From assembly GCA_019347855.1 (NCBI GenBank), contig JAHWKO010000061.1:1-14242 (forward strand): a stretch of DNA of 14,242 nucleotides, written 5' to 3'. The DNA is from Actinomycetota bacterium. GTDB lineage: Bacteria > Actinomycetota > Nitriliruptoria > Nitriliruptorales > JAHWKO01. The notes under the pieces were generated by a model. The model did not search any database. It was not told the origin of the DNA and saw only the letters and a program-made list of their open reading frames with translations. Of the stretch, positions 1 through 14,242 are shown piece after piece (the stretch's first letter is position 1; every line of letters starts with the position of its first letter). Both the position numbers and the translations under genes were made by a program.

Positions 1-784
1 ACAGCTGTCGGTCACAGTCAGCGAAGTGCTCACGGAGGCGATACCGGGTACGAGCGGAGAGCGGTGGTGTGTGCCCGGGGTTACGTTCCGCGACGGCCGG
101 CACCTCGACGGGGTCCACGCCGAGGTGACCCCAGGAGCTGCTGAGCGTGCCCTGCCGGTCCGCCGCCAGGTCCGCCGTGAACAGCACCAGGAGCCGCTCC
201 CGCCCGAAGGCACCGATCCAGCGCTGGAGCTGCTCCGCGTACCGGCCACGCGCCAGGTAAGAGCGGTCCCGGTCCGATCGCGCGCCACCCTCCAGCGCCT
301 CTCCGTCACCCCGGCGTGCCGCCTCCGCCTCGATCGCGGCCTCGAACGTCGGGATGGGCTCGTTGCCACGCCGGCGCTGGTGGTGGAAGTGTGACCATGC
401 CCGGTCCACCGGGTCGCGGAGGATCGCGATGAGCGCGGGCGATCCGAGCGTCTCGGCGACACGGTTCGGGCCGCGGTCGTCGTACAGGAGGTACGGGGTG
501 GCCTCACCCGTCGCCCATCTCACGTCCCCTTCGCGGAGCTCGGCCTCGAGCGGGAAGTGCGCGCGGTACCAGCACCGGCCACGGTCGTACCAGGCATCGA
601 AGTAGTGGATCTCCTTCATGACGGCGGGCGCCACCGACGGGTGGGTGCACAGCAGGTCGTAGAGGGACGTCGTCCCGCTGCGCTGCGCACCGATGACGAG
701 GAAGTCCGGCAGCGCGCGTTCGTGGCAGCTCCCGAGCCGCTCAGTCGACGGTTGGTCGGGGAGCCAGACGGGGATCTCACGCAT
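1..784 (-). CDS. Sulfotransferase, 3' end cut by window edge
   Basis: This is a PAPS-dependent sulfotransferase of the heparan-sulfate/NodH-like type, expected to move sulfate onto a sugar or lipid hydroxyl or amine. Translation from the ATG at 784 gives 261 residues before the sequence ends. The 5'-phosphosulfate loop IGAQRSGTTSL lies at residues 31-41, a KEIHYFD segment at 57-63, GEATPYLL at 93-100, and the 3'-phosphate-binding segment LRDPVDRAWSHF at 122-133. These occur in the order and spacing of Sulfotransfer_1 proteins. The family is usually about 280-320 residues, so only the tail is missing. The ATG is the only good start, because an in-frame TGA lies a short way upstream; no strong Shine-Dalgarno sequence is visible. 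It is transcribed away from the second sulfotransferase. The family call is firm; the acceptor is unknown. Confidence 0.88.
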   Translation of the reverse strand, partial: MREIPVWLPDQPSTERLGSCHERALPDFLVIGAQRSGTTSLYDLLCTHPSVAPAVMKEIHYFDAWYDRGRCWYRAHFPLEAELREGDVRWATGEATPYLLYDDRGPNRVAETLGSPALIAILRDPVDRAWSHFHHQRRRGNEPIPTFEAAIEAEAARRGDGEALEGGARSDRDRSYLARGRYAEQLQRWIGAFGRERLLVLFTADLAADRQGTLSSSWGHLGVDPVEVPAVAERNPGHTPPLSARTRYRLREHFADCDRQL

Positions 785-863: not shown

Positions 864-2001
864 GTGACGACGACCGCCCGGCCCGGCATCTGTGTCCTCG
901 GTATGCACCGCAGCGGCACGTCGGTCACCGCCGCGATGTTGGAGGAGCTCGGGGTCTCGCTCGGCGACGAGCGGGCTCTGATGCCCGAGCTCCGCGAGCA
1001 CCGCGAGATCGTGCGGATCGACGACGACCTCCTGCGCGAGGCCGGCGGGCGATGGGACGACCCGCCCCGACGGTCGGCGTTGAGCGGCGTCCTCCGGTCT
1101 CCGCCCGAGGGGCTCCGGGACCGCGCGGTCACGGTGTTGGAGGAGCTCGGGGAACGGCCCTCCTGGGGTTTCAAGGACCCGCGCGCGAGCCTGACGTTGC
1201 CGTTCTGGCGAGACATCGCGGATCTGGTGCCGGTGCTGTGTGCGCGACCCGGTCGACGTCGCCCGCTCCCTCGAACGACGCGACCGCTTCCCCCTGGCCA
1301 AGGGCGTGTGGCTGTGGGCGAACCACCTGGCGGCGCTGCTCGACGCGTCGATCCGGGATCCGCTACTGATCCTGTACGAGGATCTGTTGCGCGATCCCCG
1401 GGCCACGGTGGACCGCCTGATCACGCACCTCCGGCTCCAGCCGCCATCCGAGGGTGCTGCGCGCGCTGCCGGGCTCGTGCGAGGCGACGGCGGGGGCGCT
1501 CCCCCTCCGGCCACCGGCGTAGCGCGGGCGGCGAGGGAGGCGTACGAGCTCGTCCGCACGGGGGGCCTGAGGCCACCGGCGTCCGTCACGGCCATCCTCC
1601 GCCAGCTCGACGACGACCTGCGCCCCCGCCTCAGCGAGTCCTGGGAGCAACGCACGGAGAGGATGCTCGAGGCCATCACCAGGGCCGTGCCCGCAGGCTC
1701 GACCATCGCGGTCATCGATGACGGCAGCCTCCAGCTCCCCCCGGACGTCCGGGGCTGCCGTGTGTTGCGCCACGACGACCTCCCCGGGGTGGAGGGTCCT
1801 CCGGCGGACGGCGCTGGTGCGTCCGCCCGGCTCGCCCGGATCCGGGACGCGGGCGCCTCGCACGTCGCCATCTCCTGGACGTCGACGTGGTGGATCGACC
1901 ACTTCGCCGCGTTCGCGAGCGCCCTCCGATCAGGCGGTGAGCCCGTACTCGCCGACGAGCGGGTCACGCTGTTCGCCCTCGGGGCGCCAACCGATCGCTA
2001 G
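864..2001 (+). CDS. Sulfotransferase with C-terminal accessory domain, apparently frameshifted
   Basis: This is a PAPS-type sulfotransferase read in two frames. From the GTG at 864, frame one gives the P-loop VLGMHRSGTS (residues 11-20), a helix MLEELGVSLG and FKDPRASLTLPFW (103-115), and is sensible to codon 125 (ends 1238). From base 1240 the next frame continues with VRDPVDVARSLERRDRFPLA, the 3'-phosphate-binding motif, then a helical part containing YEDLLRDP. A tail of about 100 residues (VAVIDDGSL-like start, then TSTWWIDHF) resembles an accessory domain seen on some actinobacterial sulfotransferases and glycosyltransferases. Joined, the protein would be about 378 residues. GTG 864 is chosen because the first beta-strand GICVLG needs to be included. 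Without a frame change neither part has both cofactor motifs, so the gene is a pseudogene, a sequencing error or, less likely, recoded. Its stop overlaps the convergent operon's last stop. Confidence 0.75.
1233..1246 (+). other. Apparent +1 frameshift site
   Basis: The reading frame changes between codon GTG-CTG (1233-1238) and GTG-CGC-GAC (1240-1248). One base, T1239, is extra, or two bases are missing. The site sits in a TG-rich run, gctgtgtgcgcg, which is prone to slippage and to assembly error. It falls immediately before the RDPVDVARS motif. Confidence 0.7.
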
Positions 2002-3179
2002 CCGGGGAGGGGGACGTCCGCGGCCCGCAGTAGATCGGTCAGGACACGAGGTGCCGAGAACCAGCGTTCCGCCCGTTCCCGTGCCCCGGCGGCGTGGTCG
2101 TCCCACGCGCCCTCGACGGTACGGATCCCACGAGCAGCGCCCCCGACGTCACGGAACAACCGGAGCCCGGTCCCGGCGCCCATCCAGGACAACCCCGTGT
2201 CCGACACCACCGCGGGCCGCCCCGCGGCCAGGTAGGCGGCCGTGCGGTTGTTGAACGCCCCGGTCCGGGCCTGCACGAACGCGTCCTTCGCGATGCCGAT
2301 CTCCCCCCTGGAGTCCGCGAGGTACGACCGGTAGTCGGCCGTGGACCGCGATCGTGGAACGGGATCGACGACGCGCCAGCCGTGCGCACGGAGCCGGTCG
2401 CGTGGGGCCGCTCCCGCGAGGGCCAGCTCGACCGGCACACCGATCCGATCCGGGAGCTCGACGATCCGCTCCAGCGTGACGTCCTTCTGGTGCCAGCGTC
2501 GGCCATCCCAGTCTCGAGATCCGTACGACGCCCACGAGGTGACGGTCGTCCAGGCGGCGCCGTCCTCCACCGGTTCCACCGTCCAGGAGGCGACGTCGAC
2601 CGGTGGGAGGGTGGCCACCCACCGACGACCCGCCGACGGCACGTCGGCCGTGCCGTCCGCGAGGTTCACCGCGTACGTGGCCAGCACGTCGTGCCGATCG
2701 ATGTGGGCGGCCCAGTCCGGATCCTCGAGCATGCGGATCTGCGTGAACGGCGCGTCGCAGTCCACGAGGATGTGACGCGACGCGAGCTCGAGTTCGGGGG
2801 CCCAGCACGTAGCGGCCACGTCGATGACCACAGCAGCACCTGCCAACGTCGCCCGGGCCTCCTCCCGGGACATGCCGTGGTCCTCATCCCCATCGCGGTA
2901 CCACCACCGGATCCCCCCGAGCCCCTCGACCTCCAGGCTGTGCCGGAGGTGCGCCAGCCCGACGGTCGCATCCCGGGTCAGCATGCCACGGTCCGGGTCG
3001 TAGCACGTCCCGTCGTGCCCCTCCCCCGAGATGTCGGCCGTCTCGACGTACACCGGCTCGAACCCGAGGTCACGGAGCCCCTGCAGGTACGGCAGGAACA
3101 CCAGGGTCATCCCGCCGAGCGGGAAACGCACGACGTAGCCGGTGACCACCACGACCGGCCGCGCTGCGTCGCTGGTCAC
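1998..3179 (-). CDS. CgeB-like GT-B glycosyltransferase, paralog D
   Basis: This is a predicted cytosolic glycosyltransferase of 393 residues and the last gene of the operon. It begins with a nucleotide-binding-like strand/loop VVVVTGYVVRFPLGGM (residues 9-24) and GLRDLGFEPVYVE (34-46). A central VDCDAPFTQIR (139-149) follows. The C-terminal donor-side half carries SRGEIGIAKDAFV (290-302), RTGAFNNRTAAYLAAGRP (305-322) and SDTG (326-329). The last half resembles Glyco_trans_1_2/CgeB proteins. It is the most divergent of the four paralogs: where the others read RSGWF and QDTGW, this one reads RTGAF and SDTGL. It is closest to paralog B (shared VVDP.PRSR stretch). The GTG at 3179 is preferred over a GTG 27 bases upstream because it overlaps the previous stop as GTGA and has GGAGGG at 3186-3191, six bases away. 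Donor and acceptor are unknown. Confidence 0.78.
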   Translation of the reverse strand: MTSDAARPVVVVTGYVVRFPLGGMTLVFLPYLQGLRDLGFEPVYVETADISGEGHDGTCYDPDRGMLTRDATVGLAHLRHSLEVEGLGGIRWWYRDGDEDHGMSREEARATLAGAAVVIDVAATCWAPELELASRHILVDCDAPFTQIRMLEDPDWAAHIDRHDVLATYAVNLADGTADVPSAGRRWVATLPPVDVASWTVEPVEDGAAWTTVTSWASYGSRDWDGRRWHQKDVTLERIVELPDRIGVPVELALAGAAPRDRLRAHGWRVVDPVPRSRSTADYRSYLADSRGEIGIAKDAFVQARTGAFNNRTAAYLAAGRPAVVSDTGLSWMGAGTGLRLFRDVGGAARGIRTVEGAWDDHAAGARERAERWFSAPRVLTDLLRAADVPLPG

Positions 3180-4324
3180 AGGGCGCCCTCCAGCAGCCGA
3201 CCGCACACCTCCGCCGCGTCGAAATGCTCCTCCACCAGGCGTCGTGCGGCTGCTCCATGCCGTTCCGGATGCGCGGCGACCTCCTCGATCGCGCTGACGG
3301 CGTCCTCGGGTGTCGAGAACGCCAGGAGCCCGTCACCGTCCGGCAGCCAGTCGCGCCAGCCGGTGTCCTGGACGATCGCCGGGCGCCCGCTCGCCATGTA
3401 GTAGCAGGTGCGCTCGCTGAACCACCCCGAGCGGGCCGCCACGTACCCGTGCTTGGCGAACCCCAGCTCGCCGAGGCTGCGGCGCATGAACGTCCGGTAG
3501 CGCTCGGTGGTGAGGGTCGACTCGATCGCGTTCGGCTGCTCCCAGCCGTGGTCGCGCAGCAACCGTTCGCCCTGCAGCATCGCTTCCCCGTCGCCGCCGC
3601 CGAGGGCGATCGCCAGCCGCTGCTCGGTGCGTCGTGGCAGGTCGACGTACCTCCGGATACTGCGGTCCTTCATCCCGAAGTCACGGCCGTCCCACGTCCG
3701 CACGTCGTAGGCGTGCCACGCGGTCACGGTGGTCAGCGGCTGGTCGCGACACGGCGGGTCGTCAGCCGGGGGCCAGCAGATCGTCGACACCGGTTGACGC
3801 GTGGGCACCCACTCGTGCCGCTGGGCTGGCAGCGGTGGCCGGCCGAAGGTGAACAGCCGCGTGTGCGTCTCCGGCACGGACCCGAGCATCTCGTCGCCCT
3901 GCGCGATGCGGATCTGGTTGAACACCGGATCCGTGTCGATCGCGAGCCGGTGCGGGATCGCGCGGTACTCGGGACGCATCGGACAGGTCATCGAGACGTT
4001 GACGAACACGTCCGCCTCCGCCAGCACGTCCATCGTGGTCTCGCGGTCCATGCCCTCGAAGCGGTCCTGGGGCACGTGCCGGAACACCCACCGCCCGTCG
4101 AGGCCGAGATCCGCCATCTCCCGCTGGAGGAACCGGACCCCGGCGTGACAGTCGGGATCCACCTCGTCGGTCTCCGGGTCGTAGCCGAACGGCGCGTCCC
4201 CGGCGTCGTCGAGGAACCAGACGTCGTGCCCCAACTCCCGGAACCCCAGCGCGAACGAGACCGGGTGCCACAGGAACCCCGCGACGGGGAACCCCGCGAC
4301 CCAGCCGGCGACGACGACCTTCAC
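3176..4324 (-). CDS. CgeB-like GT-B glycosyltransferase, paralog C
   Basis: This predicted cytosolic glycosyltransferase of 382 residues is a paralog of A, B and D. The N-terminus is KVVVAGWVAGFPVAGFLW (2-19) with ALGFRELGHDVWFLDDAG (25-42), very like paralog A. The centre has ADVFVNVS (104-111), IDTDPVFNQIR (129-139) and WVPTRQP (172-178). The C-terminal half has SLGELGFAKHGYV (283-295), RSGWFSERTCYYMASGRP (298-315), QDTGW (319-323) and FSTPE (336-340), the probable donor-binding Rossmann half of a GT-B fold. The GTG at 4324 overlaps the preceding TGA by four bases (GTGA); a longer reading from 4429 would lie inside the GT4 gene and adds only low-complexity residues. The stop in turn overlaps the start of paralog D. 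Donor sugar and linkage cannot be read from the sequence. Confidence 0.8.
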   Translation of the reverse strand: MKVVVAGWVAGFPVAGFLWHPVSFALGFRELGHDVWFLDDAGDAPFGYDPETDEVDPDCHAGVRFLQREMADLGLDGRWVFRHVPQDRFEGMDRETTMDVLAEADVFVNVSMTCPMRPEYRAIPHRLAIDTDPVFNQIRIAQGDEMLGSVPETHTRLFTFGRPPLPAQRHEWVPTRQPVSTICWPPADDPPCRDQPLTTVTAWHAYDVRTWDGRDFGMKDRSIRRYVDLPRRTEQRLAIALGGGDGEAMLQGERLLRDHGWEQPNAIESTLTTERYRTFMRRSLGELGFAKHGYVAARSGWFSERTCYYMASGRPAIVQDTGWRDWLPDGDGLLAFSTPEDAVSAIEEVAAHPERHGAAARRLVEEHFDAAEVCGRLLEGAL

Positions 4325-5646
4325 GCCGGCACCGTCCCTCGCGACCCGCCGATGGCGACCCCGGCCTCCCCCAGGGCCACGCCCAGTCGTCGGCCTACCG
4401 CGTCCAGTCCGAAGGACCGCTCCGCGCATCGTCGCGCAGCCGCAGCGACGCCACGTCGGCGTCCCACGTCATCGAGCAGGGCGCCGAGGGCGTCGGCAAG
4501 GGCGTCTGGATCCTCCGGTGGGATGCGCAGCACCCCGTCGGCCTCGCCACGTGGGGCGAGGTCGCGGACCCCCGGGACATCGGTTGCAACGACCGGCAAC
4601 CCCGCTGCCATGGCCTCGAGGGGGGCGACCGGGAACCCCTCGTGACGGGAGGGCAGGACGGCGACGTCCCCGCACGAGACGAGGTCGGCGAGCTCGCTGC
4701 GGTCGGCGACGAACCGGTCCACCCAGACGACGTCCGTCCGTCCTCCCAGGCGCATCCGTAGGGCCTCGCGGTCCGGGCCGTCGCCCACCAGCAGCAGCCG
4801 GACGTCGTCACGTCCGTCCGCGAGGCGCGTCCAGGCCTCGATCAGCACGTCGAGCCCCTTGACGTGCATCGCGACGCGCCCGTGCCAGACGACGACCTCG
4901 ACGTCGGACGGCAGACCGAGCCGTCGGCGGACCGACGCGCCGTCGCTCGCCCTGTCCCACAGATCGAGTCGGACGGGGTTGGGGACATCCAACGCGGTGA
5001 CCCCGTAACGCTCGGCGACCCGAGCACGCTCGGAGGAGGGACCGGCCATGATCCCCGCCGCGAGCCGCACCGAGAGCGGACGCGTGAACCGCTCCAGGGG
5101 GGTGGTCCGGAAGTCCCCGCCCTGGAAGCTCGCGAGCACCGGCACACCCGACAGCCGACCCATGGCGACGACCACGTCGAAGCGCGGATGCTCGTAGTCC
5201 TGACAGATGATCGCGTCGACCCGATCCTCCCGGAGGACCCTCCCCAGCTCGACCACGGGCGTCGCCAGGTACGGGGCGAGCGCCCAGGCGGCGGTCGTGA
5301 CCCACCGTCGGCCCGGACCGCCCGTCTCCGCCCCGGCCTGCTCGACCGTCATCGCGTACGGGTTCGGCACGCGACGGCGAACGGCCCGGTACGGCGACGG
5401 AGCGGGGAGCACCACGATCGGGGCGCCGGTCGGTCCGTGGGTGGTCCGCGTCGTCGTCCGCGTGATGGCGGATACGACCACGATCGTGGCGTCGACCCCG
5501 ACGCGATCGAGGGCACGGACGTAGCCGAACAACCAGCCGTCGTCCAGGTCGTCACGGTACTGCTCGAACGTCAGTCCCACCGCGTCCAGGTAGTCCTCGA
5601 GCAGGTGGGTCCAATCGAGGATGACGACACGCCGTCGACCGCTCAC
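4321..5646 (-). CDS. GT4 family glycosyltransferase
   Basis: This is a retaining GT-B glycosyltransferase of family 4, 441 residues, expected to add a sugar from a nucleotide donor on the cytosolic side. The N-terminal acceptor half includes VVILDWTH (7-14) and an ICQDYEHPRFDV segment (147-158). The linker leads into the donor half with VVWHGRVAMHVKGLDVLIEA (252-271), LLLVGDGPDRE (284-294), and the EX7E motif HEGFPVAPLEAMAAGLP (335-351; E336 and E344). Lys263 is the usual donor-phosphate contact. The open frame extends to 6285, but the GTG at 5646 overlaps the upstream TGA as GTGA and places the first beta-strand at residue 7, as is normal for the family. It lies between paralogs B and C and is clearly not of their family. 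Confidence 0.9.
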   Translation of the reverse strand: MSGRRRVVILDWTHLLEDYLDAVGLTFEQYRDDLDDGWLFGYVRALDRVGVDATIVVVSAITRTTTRTTHGPTGAPIVVLPAPSPYRAVRRRVPNPYAMTVEQAGAETGGPGRRWVTTAAWALAPYLATPVVELGRVLREDRVDAIICQDYEHPRFDVVVAMGRLSGVPVLASFQGGDFRTTPLERFTRPLSVRLAAGIMAGPSSERARVAERYGVTALDVPNPVRLDLWDRASDGASVRRRLGLPSDVEVVVWHGRVAMHVKGLDVLIEAWTRLADGRDDVRLLLVGDGPDREALRMRLGGRTDVVWVDRFVADRSELADLVSCGDVAVLPSRHEGFPVAPLEAMAAGLPVVATDVPGVRDLAPRGEADGVLRIPPEDPDALADALGALLDDVGRRRGVAAAARRCAERSFGLDAVGRRLGVALGEAGVAIGGSRGTVPA

Positions 5647-6782
5647 AGCCCCGCTTCCGACAACATCGCGCCGAGGACCGTGCGGGCGTCGAACTCCCGC
5701 TCCGCGATCCGCCTGGCGCAGGTCGCGTGGTGCGCCGGGTCGGCCTCGACCGTGTGCAGGGCGTCCGCGGCTTGCTCGGGGGTCGAGAACGGGAACAGCC
5801 CACCCCCGTCCGTGGGGAGGAAACTCGACCAGCCGGTGTCCTGAGCGACGACGGGTCGCCCCGCAGCGAGGTAGTTGGCGCTGCGCTCCGCGAACCAGCC
5901 GGAGCGCGAGCGCACGAACGCCTGTTTCTGGACGGTGAGCTCGCCGCGGCTGGCGTGGATGTAGTCCTGGAGATCCCAGATCGTCCGGGATCGCGGCAAC
6001 GGGTCGACGACGCTCCACCCGGCGGCTCGCAGCTCCTCGCGGGGGGCCGGTCCGTCCAACGCGATCTCCAGGGCCAGCCCCGTGCGGGCTGGGAGATCCC
6101 AGACCACCGGGAACGCGGCGTCCTTCTGGCCCCAGGTCTCGCCCTCCCACGTCACCGTCCCGTAGGAACGCCAGTTCATCACCGTGGTCCACGTCCCTCC
6201 GATCTCGTGGTCCTCGTCCCAGAGCGGTAGATGGATCGGTTGCCGGGTGGGGCGCCACCGCAGCCCGACGTCGGGGATCCGGCACCAGGGCTCGCCGATC
6301 GCCTCGGCGAACGTGAAGTGCAGGTCGTGCATCTCCATGAGGACGCGCAGGTCGTCGTTCCCCGTGAGGGCTCGCACCTGGTTGAACGCGGAGTCCGTGT
6401 CGACGAACGCGAGAGTCCGAGCCTTGCGATGGTGCTCGAAGGGGAACAGCCCACCGCTGAGGTTGATCAGCAGGTCCGCGGTCGCGCAGCGGCCATGGAC
6501 ATCACGCCGGTCTGTCCCGTGGTAGTCCCCATGCGGGTCCATGTAGGCCCAAGGCAGATCGAAGGCCTCGAACAGGTCGGTCAGCCAGGCGATCGTGTAC
6601 GAGGCGTCCTCGATCACGTCCCGCCGGTCCGGGTGGTAGGGCCACGCCCAGTGGTCCTCCAGGTAGAAGACCTCGACCCCGAGATCCCGCAGTCCCAGGC
6701 AGTACTGCAGGTAGTGCAGTCCCATCCCGCCGACGGGGACCGCACCCGCCAGTCCGCACACGACCACCCGCGGATCAGGCAT
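5643..6782 (-). CDS. CgeB-like GT-B glycosyltransferase, paralog B
   Basis: This predicted cytosolic glycosyltransferase has 379 residues. The N-terminus VVVCGLAGAVPVGGMGL (6-22) leads into CLGLRDLGVEVFYLED (28-43). The middle has LLINLSGGL (104-112), VDTDSAFNQVR (127-137), WRPTRQP (176-182) and WTTVMNWRSYG (198-208). The C-terminal half carries SRGELTVQKQAFV (278-290), RSGWFAERSANYLAAGRP (293-310), QDTGWSSFLP (314-323) and FSTPEQA (332-338). The AAGRP segment matches the CgeB/Glyco_trans_1_2 pattern. It is most like paralog D in the first 45 residues and around LRAAGWSVVDPLPRSR (251-266). The ATG at 6782 overlaps the stop of the acyltransferase upstream by eight bases and has GGAGGA about eleven bases before it. 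An extension to 6851 adds residues without family match. Confidence 0.8.
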   Translation of the reverse strand: MPDPRVVVCGLAGAVPVGGMGLHYLQYCLGLRDLGVEVFYLEDHWAWPYHPDRRDVIEDASYTIAWLTDLFEAFDLPWAYMDPHGDYHGTDRRDVHGRCATADLLINLSGGLFPFEHHRKARTLAFVDTDSAFNQVRALTGNDDLRVLMEMHDLHFTFAEAIGEPWCRIPDVGLRWRPTRQPIHLPLWDEDHEIGGTWTTVMNWRSYGTVTWEGETWGQKDAAFPVVWDLPARTGLALEIALDGPAPREELRAAGWSVVDPLPRSRTIWDLQDYIHASRGELTVQKQAFVRSRSGWFAERSANYLAAGRPVVAQDTGWSSFLPTDGGGLFPFSTPEQAADALHTVEADPAHHATCARRIAEREFDARTVLGAMLSEAGL

Positions 6783-7326
6783 CGCCGGCCCCGTCCTCCG
6801 CCTCGTACACCGAACCCACGATCCGGGCCGGCTGTCCGGCCACGATGGCACCCGGCGGTACCGGCTGATCGACCACGGTGCCGGTCCCGATCACCGCATC
6901 GTCGCCGATCGTCACCGGCCCGACCACGACGGTGAGGTTGTTGATCCAGACGTTGTCACCGATCACCACGTCGCCACCGCCGCCATGTGTCTCCTGCCCC
7001 ACGGGCGCCCCGGGCGGGGCCGTGAAAGGGGTGTCGGCGATCAGCACCCGGTAGCCGATCATCGCGTGGGACCCGATGACGACCTCGTGGTCGGAGCTGA
7101 CCACCGACCCGTTGAAGGTGCAGAAGTCGCCGGTGACGAGGCGTCCGGAGGGGCCCAGCACGAACATCGTCCCGTCGTAGACGCCGTTGCTCCGCCCGAT
7201 CCTCACCCCCCGTTCGCTGCGGTAGTGCAGGAACGCGTACGACGAGTACAGCCAGCTGTCCGCTCCCAGCTCGACGTTGTCGGGGAGCGGTCGGGGGAAC
7301 CAGTCGTGCTGGAGCCCGCCAGTCAC
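6775..7326 (-). CDS. Hexapeptide-repeat (LbH) acyltransferase, second copy, catalytic His absent
   Basis: This is a left-handed beta-helix protein of the sugar O-acetyltransferase type, 183 residues. After PLPDNVELGADSWLY (13-27) and an HYRSERG segment it has runs of hexapeptide turns such as VVIGSHAMIGYRVLIADT (82-99) and VVIGDNVWINN (120-130), ending VPPGAIVAGQPARIVG (156-171), the usual cap of Maa/NodL-like enzymes. It is a tandem paralog of the gene just upstream. The usual catalytic His after the IADxxF strand is not there: the aligned residue is Thr102 (codon 7021-7023) in PFTAPPG. Either the enzyme uses another base (H114, in ETHGGGG, is a candidate) or it is not catalytic. GTG 7326 overlaps the previous TGA as GTGA and has AGGAGG at 7333-7338, six bases away. 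Confidence 0.85.
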   Translation of the reverse strand: MTGGLQHDWFPRPLPDNVELGADSWLYSSYAFLHYRSERGVRIGRSNGVYDGTMFVLGPSGRLVTGDFCTFNGSVVSSDHEVVIGSHAMIGYRVLIADTPFTAPPGAPVGQETHGGGGDVVIGDNVWINNLTVVVGPVTIGDDAVIGTGTVVDQPVPPGAIVAGQPARIVGSVYEAEDGAGDA

Positions 7327-7904
7327 CGGTCCCCTCCTGACACCGGGGTCGCGGGGTTGCCGCCCACCGTGGTCCCCGGCGGCACGTCCCGGGTGACGAC
7401 CGCCCCCGGCAGGACCGTGGCGCTGGCGCCGATCGTGACCCCCTTGAGCACGATCGCGCGCGCACCGAGCCGCACGTCGTCACTGATGACGACGGGGTCG
7501 GCGGTGAGCGGAGCACGGTCGCGCCGGTCGCCCGTCGGGGTGATCGCTCGGGCATCCTGGCGACGCGCCTCCGGCTCCAACGGGTGGAAGCTGCTGTCGG
7601 CGATCATGACGTCGAACCCCAGCAGGACCCGACGGCCCACCCGGATGTGCTCGTGGCACATGAACAGCGGCCCCACGAGCACGCTGTCGTCGCCGACCTC
7701 GACCAGCCCGGGCGGGTCGACGCTGAACTCGGTCCAGGTGTAGACCGTCACGCGGTCCCCGAGGACGAGGCCGGGGTCGCGCTGACTACGGTAGCGGCGG
7801 AAGCTGTCGGCACGTTCGAGGTACACGTCGGCGCCGAGCCGGACGTTGTCGGGCAACGTGGAGTGATCCCAGTTGCCCGTCCAGCTCGCGACGGGATCGT
7901 TCAC
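7323..7904 (-). CDS. Hexapeptide-repeat (LbH) sugar O-acyltransferase, first copy
   Basis: This left-handed beta-helix acyltransferase of 193 residues probably acetylates a hydroxyl of the glycan from acetyl-CoA. It has TLPDNVRLGADVYLERADSF (16-35), then hexapeptide turns VLVGPLFMCHEHIRVGRRVL (75-94), and IADSSFHPLEPEARR (101-115), in which His107 (codon 7584-7586) matches the catalytic His of the HPLDPEER motif of Maa/NodL/LacA. PVVISDDVRLGARAIVLKGV (137-156) and VLPGAVVTRDVPPGTTVGGN (164-183) complete the helix cap. The open frame begins at 8132, but the GTG at 7904 overlaps the stop of paralog A as GTGA, with GGAGAGG upstream, and places the TLPDNV segment where it lies in the sister gene. 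Confidence 0.9.
   Translation of the reverse strand: MNDPVASWTGNWDHSTLPDNVRLGADVYLERADSFRRYRSQRDPGLVLGDRVTVYTWTEFSVDPPGLVEVGDDSVLVGPLFMCHEHIRVGRRVLLGFDVMIADSSFHPLEPEARRQDARAITPTGDRRDRAPLTADPVVISDDVRLGARAIVLKGVTIGASATVLPGAVVTRDVPPGTTVGGNPATPVSGGDR
7333..7338 (-). promoter_or_regulatory. Strong Shine-Dalgarno deciding the start at 7326
   Basis: The minus strand reads AGGAGG, six bases before the GTG at 7326. It lies inside the last codons of the first acyltransferase gene. It is the best ribosome-binding site in the cluster and supports the GTGA-overlap start. Confidence 0.7.
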
Positions 7905-9061
7905 GTGACCGTCCTCTCCAACAGGTCGCCCAGCACGAGCTCGGCGTCGAAGTGCGTCTCGGCGATCTCGCGGGCCGCCTGCGACTCCGCACCCCACGAG
8001 CCCTCGACCTGGCGCACCGCCCGCTCCGCCTCGGCCCCCGACTCGAAGGCGTGCAACCCAGCACCCGCCGGCAGCTCCTCGGACCACCCGGTGTCCTGCA
8101 GGACCGCGGGGCGGCCGGCGGCCAGGTAGCACGTCGACCGACAGCTGAACCAGCCAGAACGGGTCGACACGTACGTGTGCTTGGCCACCGCCAGCTCACC
8201 GCGGGAGCCCTGCAGGTAGTCCCGGTAGCGGTCAGGGGTCGCCGAGACCTCCGGACCGGACGTCACCCGCCAGCCGAGCTGACGCCAGCGTTCCACGGGA
8301 GGGTCAGCACCGCCGGCCGCCAGCTCCAGCGGAGCGTCGACCCGGCCGGGCAGTCCCTCGATGCGGGGGAACTCGCGCTCGCGCGCCCCGAGCTCCGCGC
8401 CGGCACCGTCGAGGACCGGCTCGGTGAAGTTGCTCCACGTGAACACGGTGGTCCAGGTCTCCCCTGCCGGCATCTCGGCATCCCAGCGATCGAGCACGAC
8501 CGGTGGACGGGTGGGATGCCACGTCAGATCGAAGTCCGGGAGCGGGCAGTCCGCCCGGCCCAGCCTCGTGGCGTACGTGAAGAACACGTCGTGATCGCTG
8601 TAGAGGCCGCCGATCCGACCAGGCTCGTCGTGCTGGCGCGGCCACCGGTCGTAGTGGTTCCATCCCGGGTCCGTGTCGATCAGGACGGTCCGCTCGGCCT
8701 GCCGGTACTCGTCCCGGAGCTGGGCGCCGCCCGACACGTTCACGAACACATCGGCGGTCGCCAGCACCTCCCCCATCACCGCGGGGTCCGCCCCGTACAC
8801 CCCGCCGTCGTAGGTGCGCAGCTGCCAGCGCTCGCCCAGCGTGGGCGAGACCGCGGCCAGCCACGCTCGCAGACGCTCGGCCGCACCGGCCCAGTTCTCG
8901 CCGTACTCACCCACGTCCGGGTCGTAGGCCGGGAAGCCGGCGTCCTCCAGGTACCACACCTCGCACCCCAACGCCTCGAAGCCGAGCGCGTACTGGGCGT
9001 AGTCCCAGAACGGTCCACCCAGGCCGAACGTGGCGATCATGCCGCTGACGACCACCTTCAC
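7901..9061 (-). CDS. CgeB-like GT-B glycosyltransferase, paralog A
   Basis: This predicted cytosolic glycosyltransferase of 386 residues is the first of the four paralogs in transcription order. The N-terminus KVVVSGMIATFGLGGPFW (2-19) and ALGFEALGCEVWYLEDAG (25-42) are very like paralog C. Further motifs are ADVFVNVSGG (103-112), IDTDPGWNHYD (128-138), WHPTRPP (181-187) and WTTVFTWSNF (203-212). The C-terminal half has SRGELAVAKHTYV (286-298), RSGWFSCRSTCYLAAGRP (301-318) and QDTGW (322-326). The central motif departs from the DTDxxxNQ(I/V)R of B and C by reading NHYDR. The start is GTG 9061 because the beta-strand begins at residue 2 and GAGGGG (9068-9073) sits six bases upstream, overlapping the stop codon of the ABC gene. 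A longer frame to 9109 lies inside that gene. The family call rests on the C-terminal half. Confidence 0.8.
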   Translation of the reverse strand: MKVVVSGMIATFGLGGPFWDYAQYALGFEALGCEVWYLEDAGFPAYDPDVGEYGENWAGAAERLRAWLAAVSPTLGERWQLRTYDGGVYGADPAVMGEVLATADVFVNVSGGAQLRDEYRQAERTVLIDTDPGWNHYDRWPRQHDEPGRIGGLYSDHDVFFTYATRLGRADCPLPDFDLTWHPTRPPVVLDRWDAEMPAGETWTTVFTWSNFTEPVLDGAGAELGAREREFPRIEGLPGRVDAPLELAAGGADPPVERWRQLGWRVTSGPEVSATPDRYRDYLQGSRGELAVAKHTYVSTRSGWFSCRSTCYLAAGRPAVLQDTGWSEELPAGAGLHAFESGAEAERAVRQVEGSWGAESQAAREIAETHFDAELVLGDLLERTVT

Positions 9062-9067
9062 ATCGCA

Positions 9068-9073
9068 CCCCTC
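9068..9073 (-). promoter_or_regulatory. Shine-Dalgarno embedded in the ABC gene stop codon
   Basis: The minus strand reads TGAGGGG at 9074-9068: the TGA ends the ABC exporter gene and GAGGGG forms a good ribosome-binding site, six bases before the GTG at 9061. It settles the start of paralog A and suggests reinitiation. Confidence 0.65.
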
Positions 9074-11315
9074 ATGCCGGTAGCCGATCTGAGGAGACCT
9101 CCCGCGCACCCTCCAGCGCGCGTACCCGGTGAGCGTGCAGCTCGAGCAGCGCGTCGCAGTAGTCGAGCGTCGACAGCCGGTGCGCGATCATGATGGTGGT
9201 GCGTCCGCGCATCAGCCGCTCGAGGGCCGCCATGATCGTCGCCTCGGTCTCCCGATCCACCGAGCTGGTGGGCTCGTCGAGGATGAGGACCGGGGCGTCC
9301 TTCAGGAAGGCCCGCGCCAGGGAGATCCGCTGACGCTGACCGCCGGACAGCCGCATCCCCTTGTCGCCGACGTCCGTGTCGTACCCGTCGGGGAGCTGGC
9401 GGATGAACGCGTCCGCATCGGCGGCACGCGCCGCCTCGACCACCTCGTCGAGGGTCGCCTCCGGACGGGCGTAGCGGATGTTCTGCGCGATCGAGTTCGA
9501 GAACAGGACGGGCTTCTGCAGGACGAGGGCGAACTGCCGACGCAGGGAGTCGACCTGCAGATCGCGGAGATCGACGCCGTCGAGGAGGATCCGCCCCTCC
9601 GTCGGGTCGTAGAACCGCATCATCAAGCTGACCATCGTCGTCTTGCCTGCTCCGGTGCGACCGACCAGACCGACGCGCGCACCGGGCTCGATCTCGAACG
9701 AGACGTCGGAGAGGACCGGGACCCGCCCGTCGTAGGAGAAGGACACGTGCTCGAAGGTGAGGCGTCCCCGGACGTCGGTGGCGGGCCGTGCATCGGGGCG
9801 TTCCACCACCTCGGGCTCCCGGTCGAGGAGCTCGAACGCGCGCTGGGCACCCGCCAGGGAGTTCTGGGCGTCACCGGCCTTCTGGCTCACCTGTCGCAGC
9901 GGGTCGTACAGCTGGCGGATGTAGCTCATGACGACCAGCAGCTCGCCCAGCCGCAGCTCGCCGTTCATGACGCTGTGGACCCCCAGGAACAGCACGAGCG
10001 CGGTCCCGATCGCCGTCGTCACGTTGATCGCCAGCCCGAACCCGCCCTCGGCGAACGCGAGACGCACCCGGGCACGCACCGTTTCGCCCGAACGCTCCAT
10101 GAAGCGGCGCTGCTCGTCATCCTCCCGTCCGAACGCCTTCACCACCTCGACGGCCGACAGGGTCTCCTGCACCACCTCCATCGCGGCGCTCTGTTTCTCG
10201 TGCAGCTCACGGTACTGACCGCGGACCCGCCAGACGTAGCTGCGCGCCAGGACGAACAGCACCGGCATGACGACCAGTGCGACCAGCACCAGCCGGATCG
10301 AGATGCGGGCCGTGATGACGAGCGTGGCGATCAGCAGGACCACCGAGGACACGACCGATATCGCGCTGTCGAGGAGGTGCCGTATCGACTGAGCGTCGTA
10401 CTGGACGCGGTACAGGGCGTCTGTCGGTCCGTGCGCGTAGTGGTGAGCGAGCGACATGCGCTGGGCGTGTCGGAACAGCTGTGACCGGAAATCCACCGTG
10501 AGCTGCTCGCCGAGCCGGGTGTGGAGCGCGTACGAGGCGATCGACTGCAGCTGCACACCGAGGACGATCAGGACCTGAAGGACCGCAACCGCGATCAACA
10601 GTCGGCCCGGGGACGTCTCGAGCTGGGCGGGGATGATCGGTGACAGGAAGGTCGGGACCGGGTCGGAGCCCAGGACGCTGTCGACGGCGACCTTGAGCGG
10701 CACCGGGGCCAGGAGGGACAGGGGGATCATGAGCAGGTCGAGGCCGATCATGGCCGCGATCCCCAACCGGAACCCGGACAGTTGCCGGACTATCCGTCGG
10801 ACCAGCACCTCGTCATCGGAGCCGCTGTCGTCCCCCCCGGGCCGTGCTGGTGGATCGGGGGCGAACTCCACATCCCCGCGGGCCCGGGGCGGATCGATCA
10901 CCCGTAACGGCTCCGGGCGGTCGCGCTCGTCCGCCCGGGGAGCGTCGACGGTGGGCTCGTTCTCTTCGACCGGGATCGTTCGCCACCGCCCCTCGAGCAC
11001 ACCGAGCAGCCGGTCCGCATCGAACTCCCAGACGGTCTGGGCGTGGTGGTCGGCGTCGACCCCGATGCTCTGCAGGAGATCGATCACCGCGCTCGTATCG
11101 ATGTCCAGCCTCTGCGCGAGCTCGTAGATACGGATCTTGCCGACCCCGTCACCGTCGCGTCGTGCCTCGAGCCAGCTCCGGAAGCGTTCCGCATCGGTAC
11201 GCGAGACGGTCGAGGCGTGGGTCCCCGCGGCGATGCCGAGGTGCTCGAGCTGCTCGAGCACCTCGGAGCTCGTCAACCCGCTCTCACGAGCGAGCTGCCA
11301 CACGCGGACGGACAT
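9072..11315 (-). CDS. ABC exporter half-transporter with two N-terminal IF-2-type domains
   Basis: This is a fused membrane/ATPase ABC exporter (MsbA/lipid-A or polysaccharide type), 747 residues, expected to work as a homodimer moving a glycolipid or glycan across the membrane. Residues 1-50 (SVRVWQLARESGLTSSEVLE start) and 60-109 (KIRIYELAQRLDIDTSAVID start) each match the small IF2_N helical domain of translation initiation factor IF-2. An acidic, proline-rich linker (110-168) follows. Six membrane segments lie at about 183-213, 238-260, 318-338, 341-360, 428-447 and 455-470. The ATPase has Walker A GRTGAGKTT (552-560), Q-loop Q600, signature LSGGQ (656-660), Walker B VLILDE (676-681) and His712, all intact. 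Typical exporters are about 580-600 residues, so roughly 165 residues are extra. The ATG at 11315 is four bases after the previous stop, with GGTGAG before it. The substrate is inferred from neighbours only. Confidence 0.93.
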   Translation of the reverse strand: MSVRVWQLARESGLTSSEVLEQLEHLGIAAGTHASTVSRTDAERFRSWLEARRDGDGVGKIRIYELAQRLDIDTSAVIDLLQSIGVDADHHAQTVWEFDADRLLGVLEGRWRTIPVEENEPTVDAPRADERDRPEPLRVIDPPRARGDVEFAPDPPARPGGDDSGSDDEVLVRRIVRQLSGFRLGIAAMIGLDLLMIPLSLLAPVPLKVAVDSVLGSDPVPTFLSPIIPAQLETSPGRLLIAVAVLQVLIVLGVQLQSIASYALHTRLGEQLTVDFRSQLFRHAQRMSLAHHYAHGPTDALYRVQYDAQSIRHLLDSAISVVSSVVLLIATLVITARISIRLVLVALVVMPVLFVLARSYVWRVRGQYRELHEKQSAAMEVVQETLSAVEVVKAFGREDDEQRRFMERSGETVRARVRLAFAEGGFGLAINVTTAIGTALVLFLGVHSVMNGELRLGELLVVMSYIRQLYDPLRQVSQKAGDAQNSLAGAQRAFELLDREPEVVERPDARPATDVRGRLTFEHVSFSYDGRVPVLSDVSFEIEPGARVGLVGRTGAGKTTMVSLMMRFYDPTEGRILLDGVDLRDLQVDSLRRQFALVLQKPVLFSNSIAQNIRYARPEATLDEVVEAARAADADAFIRQLPDGYDTDVGDKGMRLSGGQRQRISLARAFLKDAPVLILDEPTSSVDRETEATIMAALERLMRGRTTIMIAHRLSTLDYCDALLELHAHRVRALEGAREVSSDRLPA

Positions 11316-11319
11316 CAGC

Positions 11320-13758
11320 TCACCGTTCGGACGCCCGCACGATGGCGTGTCGGACCGTCGGCCCGGTGCGCACCCACCCGATCGCCAGATCCATCGCGGT
11401 CATCGCCAGCATGGCACCGGTCAGGGCCAGGGAGCCAGACACGTCCACGACCACGATCCCGGTCAGCAGCCAGGCGAGGGCACGTCCCCACCGCGGCTTG
11501 CGGCGCACGCGGAGCTGCACCACCCCCTCCGGGTAGGCGCTCGAGACCACGTGCCCGTCCAGCAGGATCGAGCCGAGGATCCGGGCGTCGTACGGCACCC
11601 AGCCCGATCCGCTCCGCAGCGGGAGTCCGGCGCGTCGCAGCACGGTCAGGACGTCGTCAGTCACTCCGGCCCGATCACGGGAGGTGGGCAGGACGAGCAC
11701 CCCACCGCGTTCGCGACGCACCGGACCCGGCAGCCTGGCCTCCCCGGTGAGGTCGCGTCGTGCGGTGGCCCGGGCACGGATGCGGCCCCAGGTCCGGACC
11801 ACGGGCTGCAGCAGGTGCATCATCCCGACGCCGAGACGGAACCGCACGCCGGGCGACCGCACCTCCCGTGGCAGATCCGTACTGAGCGCGTCGACCACAC
11901 CGAGGACGACGATGAACACCGCCGCCACGAGCGCGGGGAGCGCCGCCCGAGGTTCCAGGAACCCCAGCGGTGACGTCGCGAGCAGGACGGACGCCACCGG
12001 CATCCCGACCTGGTGGACCAGGTCGTTGGCGTGCCCGGGGGTCCGGTAGATCGACTGGTAGGCGGCGGTCCCGTACTCACCGTGGTAGATACGGGTGGTC
12101 CCCAGGGACGGCGTCGCCGCGTCGTAGATGTGCCCGCGCCAACTCGCAGAGCCGAGGGACGTGAACCGCTCCGGGTGCCGTGCCTCCACGAGCGCCTCCG
12201 CACGTCCGTAGCCTCGTTGCTGACGCAGGTAGGCCCGCAGGCCGGTCCGCCGGTGGTGCCAGACGAGCGCCGCAGGATGGAAGCCGATCTCCCAGCCCGC
12301 ATCGAGCACGCGCCAGCACAGGTCCACGTCATCGCCCGCGGCCTCGTAGGCAGGGTCGAACCCGCCGATCTCCGCGAGCACCTGCTCGCGCCAGAAGGCC
12401 ATGTTGCAGCCGGGCACGTGCTCGGCGCGATCGTCGGCGGTCAGGACGTGGACGGGACCGCCGGGGGCGCGGGCGACCTGCTTGGAGCCCAGGCCGTCGT
12501 CCGGGGGCGGCACGTTGGGTCCCCCTGCACCCCCCACGTCGGGACGGTCGAAGGCCAGGGCGAGGTAGTAGGGCCACTCCGGCGTCGGGTAGGCGTCCGC
12601 GTCCAGGTACGCGACGATCTCCCCGGTCGCCTGGCGGATGCCCTCGTTCCGCGCGACCGACAGCCCGCCGTGCTCGATGGACACCAGCCGGGCACGCTCG
12701 TGCCGGCGCGCGATCGCCGCGGTGTCGTCCGTCGATCCGTCGTCGATGACGAGCACCTCGATCTCCGGGTAGTCGAGAGCGCATGCGTGCGTCAGGCACT
12801 CGTCGAGCGTCGCCTCGGCGTTGTACGCGCAGATGACCACGCTGATGCTCGGCCACGGGAAGTCCAGGTCGCGCACGGTCCGCCCGTTCCAGCGGCGAGC
12901 GACCTCGAGTGCCCGACGTTCCGTGCGGTCCTCCCGTGTGAGACCGAAACGCCAGTCCTCGACCGCCGCATCGCCCACCCACCACTCGTCCGTCCAGGAG
13001 AAGAGGCAGGTCCCGGCCACGCCGCGCTCCACGGCCGTCTCGAGCTGCCAGTCCAGCACCTCCGCCTGGTGGCGCTCCCCGTCGGCGTCGTCGCCGGCGT
13101 GCAGCCCGACCTCACCCAGCACCAGCGGGCGGTCCCCAGCCAGGTGGTGCAGCCGCGTGAGGTAGCGCCGCAGGGGTTCGCGACGCTCCAGGAAGACGTT
13201 GAACGTGAGGAAGTCCAACGTCTCGACCTGCAGGTACTCCGCGGTCGGGTAGTTGGCGTAGGTGACGAGACGTTCCGGATCCTCGTCCCGGACGGTGGCC
13301 GCCAGGCGGTCGATCACCCCACCGATCCGCTCCCGGCCGTACCACCGGACGACGTCGGCGGGGACCTCGTTGCCCAGCGACAGCGCGAGCACCGTGTCGA
13401 CCTCGCGGAAGCGCCGCGCGACGTCGCCCACCTGCCGCGCTGCCTCCTCGAACAGACGGCGCCGCTGCCGGCTCGAGTCCCCGAGCAGGTAGCGCCAGTC
13501 CGGGTAGAAGACCCCGACGAGCAGCCGAAGCTCCTCCTCGTCGGCGATCTCGACCAGATCGTCGGGTGGGACGGTGTAGGTGCGCACGGTGTTGAACCCG
13601 GCCTCCCGGATATCCCGCAGGTCCCGCTTGATCTGGTCGCGGTCGGGGAACCGCGCTCCGTCGGTGTCCCTGGGGCGGAACGTCCCGTACGTCACGCCTC
13701 GCACTCGGAACCGTCGCCCGTCCAGGGTGAAGAACTTGCCGTCGACCTGGACGCGCAT
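11320..13758 (-). CDS. GH2-like TIM-barrel / GT2 glycosyltransferase fusion, membrane-anchored
   Basis: This is a bifunctional-looking protein of 812 residues, first in the operon. Residues 1-290 resemble a glycoside hydrolase family 2 catalytic barrel: FRVRGVTYGTFRP (17-29), GFNTVRTYTVPP (54-65), SLGNEVP (127-133, Glu131 acid/base), LVLGEVGLH (212-220, Glu216 nucleophile) and LFSWTDEWW (252-260). Residues 304-560 are a GT2 GT-A domain: SVVICAYNAE (306-315), VLVIDDGSTDDT (335-346), YLDADAYPTPEW (384-395), PGCNMAFW (449-456), GDDVDLCWR (475-483) and RQQRGYGRAE (512-521). Hydrophobic segments lie near 603-626 and 762-795, with a soluble stretch between. There is no signal peptide, so both catalytic domains should be cytosolic. 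The ATG at 13758 has GGAGA (13762-13766) just before it. It likely makes or edits the glycan core; linkage is unknown. Confidence 0.88.
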   Translation of the reverse strand: MRVQVDGKFFTLDGRRFRVRGVTYGTFRPRDTDGARFPDRDQIKRDLRDIREAGFNTVRTYTVPPDDLVEIADEEELRLLVGVFYPDWRYLLGDSSRQRRRLFEEAARQVGDVARRFREVDTVLALSLGNEVPADVVRWYGRERIGGVIDRLAATVRDEDPERLVTYANYPTAEYLQVETLDFLTFNVFLERREPLRRYLTRLHHLAGDRPLVLGEVGLHAGDDADGERHQAEVLDWQLETAVERGVAGTCLFSWTDEWWVGDAAVEDWRFGLTREDRTERRALEVARRWNGRTVRDLDFPWPSISVVICAYNAEATLDECLTHACALDYPEIEVLVIDDGSTDDTAAIARRHERARLVSIEHGGLSVARNEGIRQATGEIVAYLDADAYPTPEWPYYLALAFDRPDVGGAGGPNVPPPDDGLGSKQVARAPGGPVHVLTADDRAEHVPGCNMAFWREQVLAEIGGFDPAYEAAGDDVDLCWRVLDAGWEIGFHPAALVWHHRRTGLRAYLRQQRGYGRAEALVEARHPERFTSLGSASWRGHIYDAATPSLGTTRIYHGEYGTAAYQSIYRTPGHANDLVHQVGMPVASVLLATSPLGFLEPRAALPALVAAVFIVVLGVVDALSTDLPREVRSPGVRFRLGVGMMHLLQPVVRTWGRIRARATARRDLTGEARLPGPVRRERGGVLVLPTSRDRAGVTDDVLTVLRRAGLPLRSGSGWVPYDARILGSILLDGHVVSSAYPEGVVQLRVRRKPRWGRALAWLLTGIVVVDVSGSLALTGAMLAMTAMDLAIGWVRTGPTVRHAIVRASER

Positions 13759-13990: not shown

Positions 13991-14242
13991 TCACACGTTG
14001 GCGGTCCGGAGAGCATCGAGCTCCCGCTTCAGCTCGGCGACCTCGTCCCGGAGCCGTGCCGCGTACTCGAAGCGCAGCTCCCCGGCGGCTCCGTGCATCT
14101 CCTCGGTCAGCTCCCTGATCAGGGCCTCGAGGTCCTCGACCGGGAGCTCGTCGACCTCCGCGTCCATGCGGTCCCGGACGGGCGAGGTCGCGGACTCGTA
14201 GGGCTCGCCCGCCTCGGCGGCCCTGGCCGACTGGATGATGTC
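13991..14242 (-). CDS. uvrB: UvrB-like C-terminus with UVR domain, 5' part outside window
   Basis: This is the last 83 residues of a protein, open at the window edge, ending in TGA at 13991-13993. The piece starts DIIQSARAAEAG and ends with a helical-hairpin UVR motif at residues 37-72, containing LIRELTEEMHGAAGELRFEY (41-60) and AARLRDEVAELK (61-72). This matches the C-terminal UVR domain of excinuclease subunit B, which binds UvrC in nucleotide excision repair. UvrC also has a UVR motif, but in mid-protein, whereas here the protein ends about eleven residues after it. Other proteins with a terminal UVR motif (McsA or ClpC types) have different flanking sequence. It has the same direction as the glycan operon but a 232-base gap and no functional link. 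Confidence 0.8.
   Translation of the reverse strand, partial: DIIQSARAAEAGEPYESATSPVRDRMDAEVDELPVEDLEALIRELTEEMHGAAGELRFEYAARLRDEVAELKRELDALRTANV

Follow-up and report, generated by a model that had tools for sequence, protein, structure and literature searches.

Two IF2_N domains, of the type found in bacterial translation initiation factor IF-2, head an ATP-binding cassette (ABC) exporter of 747 amino acids encoded in a 14,242-nucleotide stretch of DNA from an Actinomycetota bacterium (contig JAHWKO010000061.1; the whole stretch is called the window here). Profile match, predicted fold and relatives of the exporter agree on this, and IF2_N is a lasting part of the exporter in one lineage of the family. 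In our preferred reading, to which we assign a probability of about 40%, the repeats would act as a cytosolic docking arm that holds a soluble partner and couples the last cytosolic steps to glycan export.

Two IF2_N repeats at the head of an exporter

The exporter and its parts are arranged as follows:

9072-11315, minus strand: ABC exporter, 747 amino acids (two IF2_N repeats, linker, transmembrane domain (TMD) and ATPase)
11157..11312, minus strand: IF2_N repeat 1 (exporter residues 2-53)
10983..11138, minus strand: IF2_N repeat 2 (residues 60-111; second Pfam stretch and family profile)
10821..10982, minus strand: Pro-rich linker, predicted to be disordered (residues 112-165; model confidence and low identity to relatives)
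9801..10820, minus strand: ABC exporter TMD (residues 166-505; PF00664, E = 1.4e-35)
9117..9800, minus strand: ABC ATPase (residues 506-733; PF00005, E = 7.1e-34; motifs located)

A preliminary description of this DNA had proposed, from the letters alone, that a 747-residue exporter with a complete ATPase carries two IF-2-type domains at its front, and had suggested a profile search and a structural comparison, both of which bear the proposal out. The N-terminus matches Pfam IF2_N (PF04760) with 49.5 bits (E = 3.5e-13; curated cut-off 25.3). Repeat 2 reaches 75.6 bits against the family repeat profile, and 64.1 bits when the window is excluded from that profile; in the predicted models it has the order β-α-α-β-α, and the predicted repeat fold lies within 1.1 Å of the N-domain of Thermus IF2. 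Seven N-domains of the class, presumed to belong to IF-2, moreover share 40-46% identity with the N-terminus. Behind the repeats, the predicted local distance difference test (pLDDT) stays below 50 across residues 111-168. In the ATPase, the Walker A and Walker B motifs, LSGGQ and the H-loop could all be located.

With ABC_membrane and ABC_tran on one chain, the protein is a type IV ABC exporter; the alignment with Sav1866 spans its core nearly end to end, against the six transmembrane helices that characterise the type, hydropathy gives four peaks at the chosen threshold, and the model contains long helices (mean pLDDT 66). The N-terminus of type IV exporters is cytosolic, and the exporter would be expected to form an MsbA/Sav1866-like homodimer with its repeats in the cytosol. 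It shares the one-chain arrangement with the MsbA/Sav1866-type exporters but differs from them by the 165 residues that precede the core, and its score against TIGR02203, the MsbA lipid A exporter equivalog, is 412 bits, below the cut-off of 602. The Pfam scan of the exporter yielded no C39 family, and since the N-terminus is IF2_N, this is not an exporter of the type with a C39-like domain (CLD). The scan of the whole protein yielded neither a GTPase nor C-terminal IF-2 domains either, so it is not IF-2 itself. Its repeats resemble the IF2_N (N1/N2) domains of IF-2 in profile, fold, size, tandem arrangement and the flexible linker behind them, but they have lost several residues typical of IF-2 and are attached to a membrane exporter instead of a GTPase domain.

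A natural start beyond residue 110, a possibility that the preliminary description had raised against its own proposal, finds no support: alignments of the two-repeat relatives with the window exporter begin at about residue 1, the guanine and cytosine content by codon position looks coding-like, and the start lies only 4 nucleotides past the stop codon of the upstream gene, which encodes a glycoside hydrolase-like barrel fused to a family-2 glycosyltransferase (GH/GT2).

Recurrence and conservation of the repeats

The architecture was found again when full-length relatives were compared. The best 120 of 919 and the best 120 of 913 matches comprised 151 different proteins, and among these listed matches 12 have a clear IF2_N by the family repeat profile (P0001-P0010, P0121 and P0123; the domain of P0121 falls below the Pfam cut-off). 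Two copies are present in P0001-P0004, P0006, P0009, P0010, the window and the loci L087 and L089, P0005 has two and a weak third (11.8 bits), and one copy is present in P0007, P0008, P0121, P0123 and the locus L007. P0075, which was considered as a further carrier, shows only a weak trace and was scored as lacking the domain (15.9 bits in the repeat profile, no Pfam IF2_N). When residues 1-120 were the sole query, the protein database returned one match at E <= 0.01 (P0001), which we ascribe to the size of the database relative to the short domain, full-length queries having given more.

In a tree of the exporter core only (105 rows, quick method, no bootstrap), 13 of the 15 IF2_N rows form one group with a Shimodaira-Hasegawa-like approximate likelihood ratio test (SH-aLRT) value of 98; this main clade includes P0010 from Nitriliruptor alkaliphilus (Actinomycetota), and P0012, without IF2_N as annotated, and P0075 also fall inside it. 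P0121 and P0123 branch elsewhere; in all, the tree requires five changes, at least four of them under well-supported branches. This placement points to one main origin with one or two more gains, or to a broader origin with losses. The sister of P0121, P0061, starts with what by eye is an apparent second half of an IF2_N, and thus its lack of the domain may be an annotation cut.

Among 66 genomes of the class, three (G001, G052 and G053) have a family exporter at E <= 1e-180; all three have IF2_N in such an exporter, G052 having a second one without it, and each genome has a further IF2_N in a separate, IF-2-sized frame. Among 396 genomes of the phylum there were four matches at 1e-220, with the domain in G053 and G001 and without it in G096 and G144, absences in these scans being soft because at most 70, 16 or 2 candidates per genome were scored, depending on the scan. 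A 906-residue frame of G144, considered as an N-terminal extension, shows no IF2_N and reads as a wrong-frame stretch. In 46 related loci, which had been collected with the front part of the exporter as query, a search in six frames found IF2_N above noise in L007 only (next best, 9.9 bits), the absence being tentative for L040, in which the exporter frame leaves the contig at its start; judging by the reading frames, many of the other exporters start near the core.

In seven relatives other than P0001 that have at least two repeats (P0002-P0006, P0009 and P0010), the repeats are 33-62% identical to those of the window, the linker 13-29%, the TMD 51-69% and the ATPase 64-75%, and the near neighbour P0001 shows 87 and 96% in the repeats, 70% in the linker and 96-97% in the core. 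The repeats have thus been conserved, more strongly than the linker though to a lesser degree than the transporter. The linker ranges from 13 to 134 residues in the family; in the one-repeat proteins P0007 and P0008 it aligns over 8 and 14 residues, with 38 and 36% identity. Repeat 1 resembles other repeat 1s with a mean of 0.46 and repeat 2s with 0.36, and likewise for repeat 2, so that the tandem looks old.

Precomputed Pfam marks show the combination of IF2_N and an ABC domain in database entries. Among the papers listed from the open-licence literature, no title, abstract beginning or passage describes an ABC exporter that bears IF2_N, and the pairing of the domain with ABC transporters had no match there; as far as found, the architecture is thus visible in databases yet undescribed.

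Other N-terminal extensions occur in the family. In L009 (9199-11773) the exporter begins with about 225 residues that contain, by eye, CxxC zinc-ribbon-like motifs, and the exporter N-terminus may therefore be a slot for accessory modules. The extensions of P0014, P0015 and P0127 resemble, by eye, additional membrane segments and not IF2_N, and P0137 (926 residues) also bears PF01636, which we take to be a kinase-like domain.

The gene cluster around the exporter

The exporter is surrounded by the following genes, for which GTl denotes GT-B-like proteins and HEX hexapeptide acyltransferases:

11320..13758, minus strand: GH/GT2, fusion of a GH-like TIM barrel and a family-2 glycosyltransferase, 812 amino acids, upstream neighbour (PF02836, PF00535)
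7901..9061, minus strand: GTlD, GT-B-like, next gene behind the exporter, start deduced from homologues
7323..7904, minus strand: HEX2, hexapeptide acyltransferase, start inferred (PF00132)
6775..7326, minus strand: HEX1, hexapeptide acyltransferase (PF00132)
5643..6851, minus strand: GTlC, GT-B-like (weak PF13524, 18.6 bits, cut-off 25)
4321..5622, minus strand: family-4 glycosyltransferase (PF13692, E = 1.6e-34)
3176..4429, minus strand: GTlB, GT-B-like (PF13524, 34.4 bits)
1998..3206, minus strand: GTlA, GT-B-like (PF13524, 14.2 bits, below the cut-off)
2-784, minus strand, and 1240-2001, plus strand: sulfotransferase-like open reading frames at the cluster end (one with a sub-threshold Pfam match)

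For several of these proteins, the family libraries gave a weak name or none. GTlD has no Pfam match, and its label is owed to its kinship with GTlB; of the two flanking reading frames, the one without a Pfam match is called sulfotransferase-like by motif. A comparison of the GH/GT2 protein with the plasmid collection gave no match. At 13991-14242 (minus strand) lies a fragment that, we presume, resembles the C-terminal end of UvrB.

The preliminary description had placed the exporter in a glycan-assembly operon and had wondered whether the architecture always sits in such clusters; for the four IF2_N exporters with readable context (the window, L007, L087 and L089), this is so in 4/4. The order of genes is the same in the window, L007 and L087, namely GH/GT2, IF2_N exporter, GTlD, HEX2, HEX1 and then GT-B-like genes, while in L089 the contig starts 0.7 kb before the exporter and the GH/GT2 gene is at the far end. 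A GTlD homologue with 52-56% identity directly follows the exporter in L007, L087 and L089, and paired HEX homologues occur in these three loci as well as in L015 and L046. In L046 (10001-11572), the match to the exporter is split into three stretches, as though the frame were broken.

The cluster is not confined to exporters with IF2_N. The 46 related loci span Actinomycetota, Chloroflexota, Gemmatimonadota, Acidobacteriota, Nitrospinota, Bacteroidota, Planctomycetota, Verrucomicrobiota, Pseudomonadota and others; the GH/GT2 protein is present in 35/46, in 33/46 on the strand of the exporter and upstream of it by at most 2.5 kb, at least one GT-B-like paralogue in 27/46, and either of the two in 37/46, whereas the DNA fetched for the other 9/46 contains neither. 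A second cluster of G052 (L151 and L152) provides a control within one genome, because its GH/GT2 gene is accompanied by an exporter without IF2_N while an IF2_N exporter is found elsewhere in the same genome; the HEX pair was not found in this second cluster.

Judged from the neighbouring genes alone, the exporter substrate would be a glycan or glycolipid, perhaps acylated. Sulfotransferase-like homologues lie near some related clusters; should the two such genes at the flank be part of the cluster, the substrate may also be sulfated.

A proposed docking arm and its alternatives

What the repeats might bind can be approached from IF-2. N1 of Escherichia coli IF2 contacts NusA in pull-down and photo-crosslinking experiments (PMC12297416), N2 of Pseudomonas aeruginosa IF2 lies on helix h16 of the 16S rRNA with an interface made chiefly by Ser277, Val278, Lys279 and Arg259 (PMC9192638), and tandem IF2_N is described for 134 of 191 IF2 sequences (PMC1780047). 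Docking is a sensible reading of the exporter repeats since the related domains of IF-2 are binding modules, and for the HlyB exporter the N-terminal CLD is reported to be the most critical secretion determinant (PMC11026475), so that there is a precedent for secretion being decided by a domain at the N-terminus. The likeness to HlyB-type exporters is one of function, as both have an N-terminal accessory domain; the folds are unrelated, and a protein substrate stands against a glycan cluster.

We compared 21 exporter repeats with 33 presumed IF-2 domains (29 from the class), taken from frames of the fetched loci that were not individually checked. The exporter repeats retain R4, E7, L8, A9, G13, V19, L23, G27, H33, A42 and L49, and with these the IF-2 core and some polar residues, while Y6, N16, R21, S34, S48 and G50, near-invariant in the presumed IF-2 domains, are mostly gone. 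In repeat 2, F40 is found in 8/9 and L45 in 9/9 cases, whereas the presumed IF-2 domains have no F at 40 and mostly F at 45. The lysine that contacts h16 was placed at position 15 via the alignment of E. coli N2, without the P. aeruginosa sequence itself; this position is D or T in 14/21 exporter repeats. We conclude, with moderate weight, that the exporter repeats have the scaffold of IF-2 but probably another partner.

Several observations weigh against the docking of a new partner. The polar residues R4, E7 and H33, together with D41 and R44 of repeat 2, are common to exporters and IF-2, and part of the old IF-2 surface may therefore survive. K stands at position 15 in 0/33 presumed IF-2 domains, just as in 0/21 exporter repeats; this result argues only against a contact of the N2 kind and gives no distinction between the exporters and N1. 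Together with the retained polar residues, it weakens the claim of a new partner. With repeat 2 of the window, the single repeats of P0007 and P0008 share only 37 and 23% identity. The HEX acyltransferases are rejected as an obligate partner and do not account for IF2_N, because L015 and L046 combine the HEX pair with an exporter without the domain.

The NusA and h16 contacts of IF-2, the shared residues and the 40-46% identity to presumed IF-2 N-domains would suit repeats that still bind as IF-2 does, anchoring the exporter to NusA or to the shoulder of the 30S subunit, so that its own operon is expressed at the membrane. The loss, in most exporter repeats, of six near-invariant residues and a domain charge that varies from -6 to +5 in the family argue against such a tether, as does position 15 for a contact of the N2 type, and we consider it unlikely. 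The docking idea of the preliminary description stands as sensible by analogy, while its ribosome or RNA version is somewhat weakened, with some polar residues kept. A tether to nucleic acids, for which the winged helix-turn-helix-like fold could be invoked, is highly improbable: repeat 2 has a net charge of -5 over its 52 residues and repeat 1 of zero, and a conserved charge that would suggest nucleic acid was looked for across the family and not found. It is rather unlikely that the repeats are a winged-helix-like sensor of a ligand, or of the lipid or nucleotide part of the glycan, that gates the ATPase, for copy number and linker length vary so widely that a tether fits better than an allosteric gate.

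IF2_N is also fused to other proteins. RNase E of L121 bears it (the NCBIfam RnaseEMycob match is far under the cut-off); actinobacterial RNase E with N-terminal IF2_N resembles the exporter in having the domain on a protein other than IF-2, but is an RNase and no envelope transporter. In L123 (1379-2683, minus strand), IF2_N is joined to a single hydrophobic segment, as judged by eye, to a LytR_cpsA_psr match below the threshold and to LytR_C, which makes this membrane protein a second one of envelope type with a translation-factor domain. Over 66 residues, its IF2_N shares 73% identity with the IF2_N of a 745-residue frame in the same genome that is presumably IF-2, and a match covering it in that protein was found in only 1/36 genomes of its class, so it seems to be a young copy. 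The 5' end of the IF-2 gene, infB, may thus, by these similarities, be a repeated donor, and such copying would also fit a neutral or expression-boosting fusion in which that end was placed before the exporter without a specific partner. Both repeats are, however, recognisable in relatives with the TMD identities given above, and each is closer to its own counterparts than to the other repeat, which makes a neutral fusion quite improbable. More doubtful still is the wider notion of IF2_N as a mobile module for docking in the cytosol, grafted repeatedly onto envelope-glycan machinery (the exporter family with up to three origins, and the LytR_C-type membrane protein) and linking the expression machinery to envelope assembly.

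In the docking reading that we prefer, the exporter would transport a glycan or glycolipid built by its own gene cluster. IF2_N, derived from IF-2, would have been gained at the exporter N-terminus in one lineage, with a disordered linker behind it, and each half of the dimer would contribute a pair of small, flexibly tethered domains, giving a set of arms. These could hold a soluble putative partner beside the transport cavity, most simply an enzyme, and, as a guess, one of the same cluster, and the transfer of glycosyl or acyl groups, as the final stage in the cytosol, would thereby be coupled to export.

The analysis establishes that, throughout a lineage, a translation-factor domain is a durable component of a membrane exporter, and brings to light a multi-phylum cluster of a GH/GT2 fusion, an exporter and GT-B-like proteins, in which several proteins are poorly named. 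The arm of 111 residues is a small, concrete bait with which the coupling of a glycan exporter to its supplying enzymes, and the binding range of IF2_N, may be approached.
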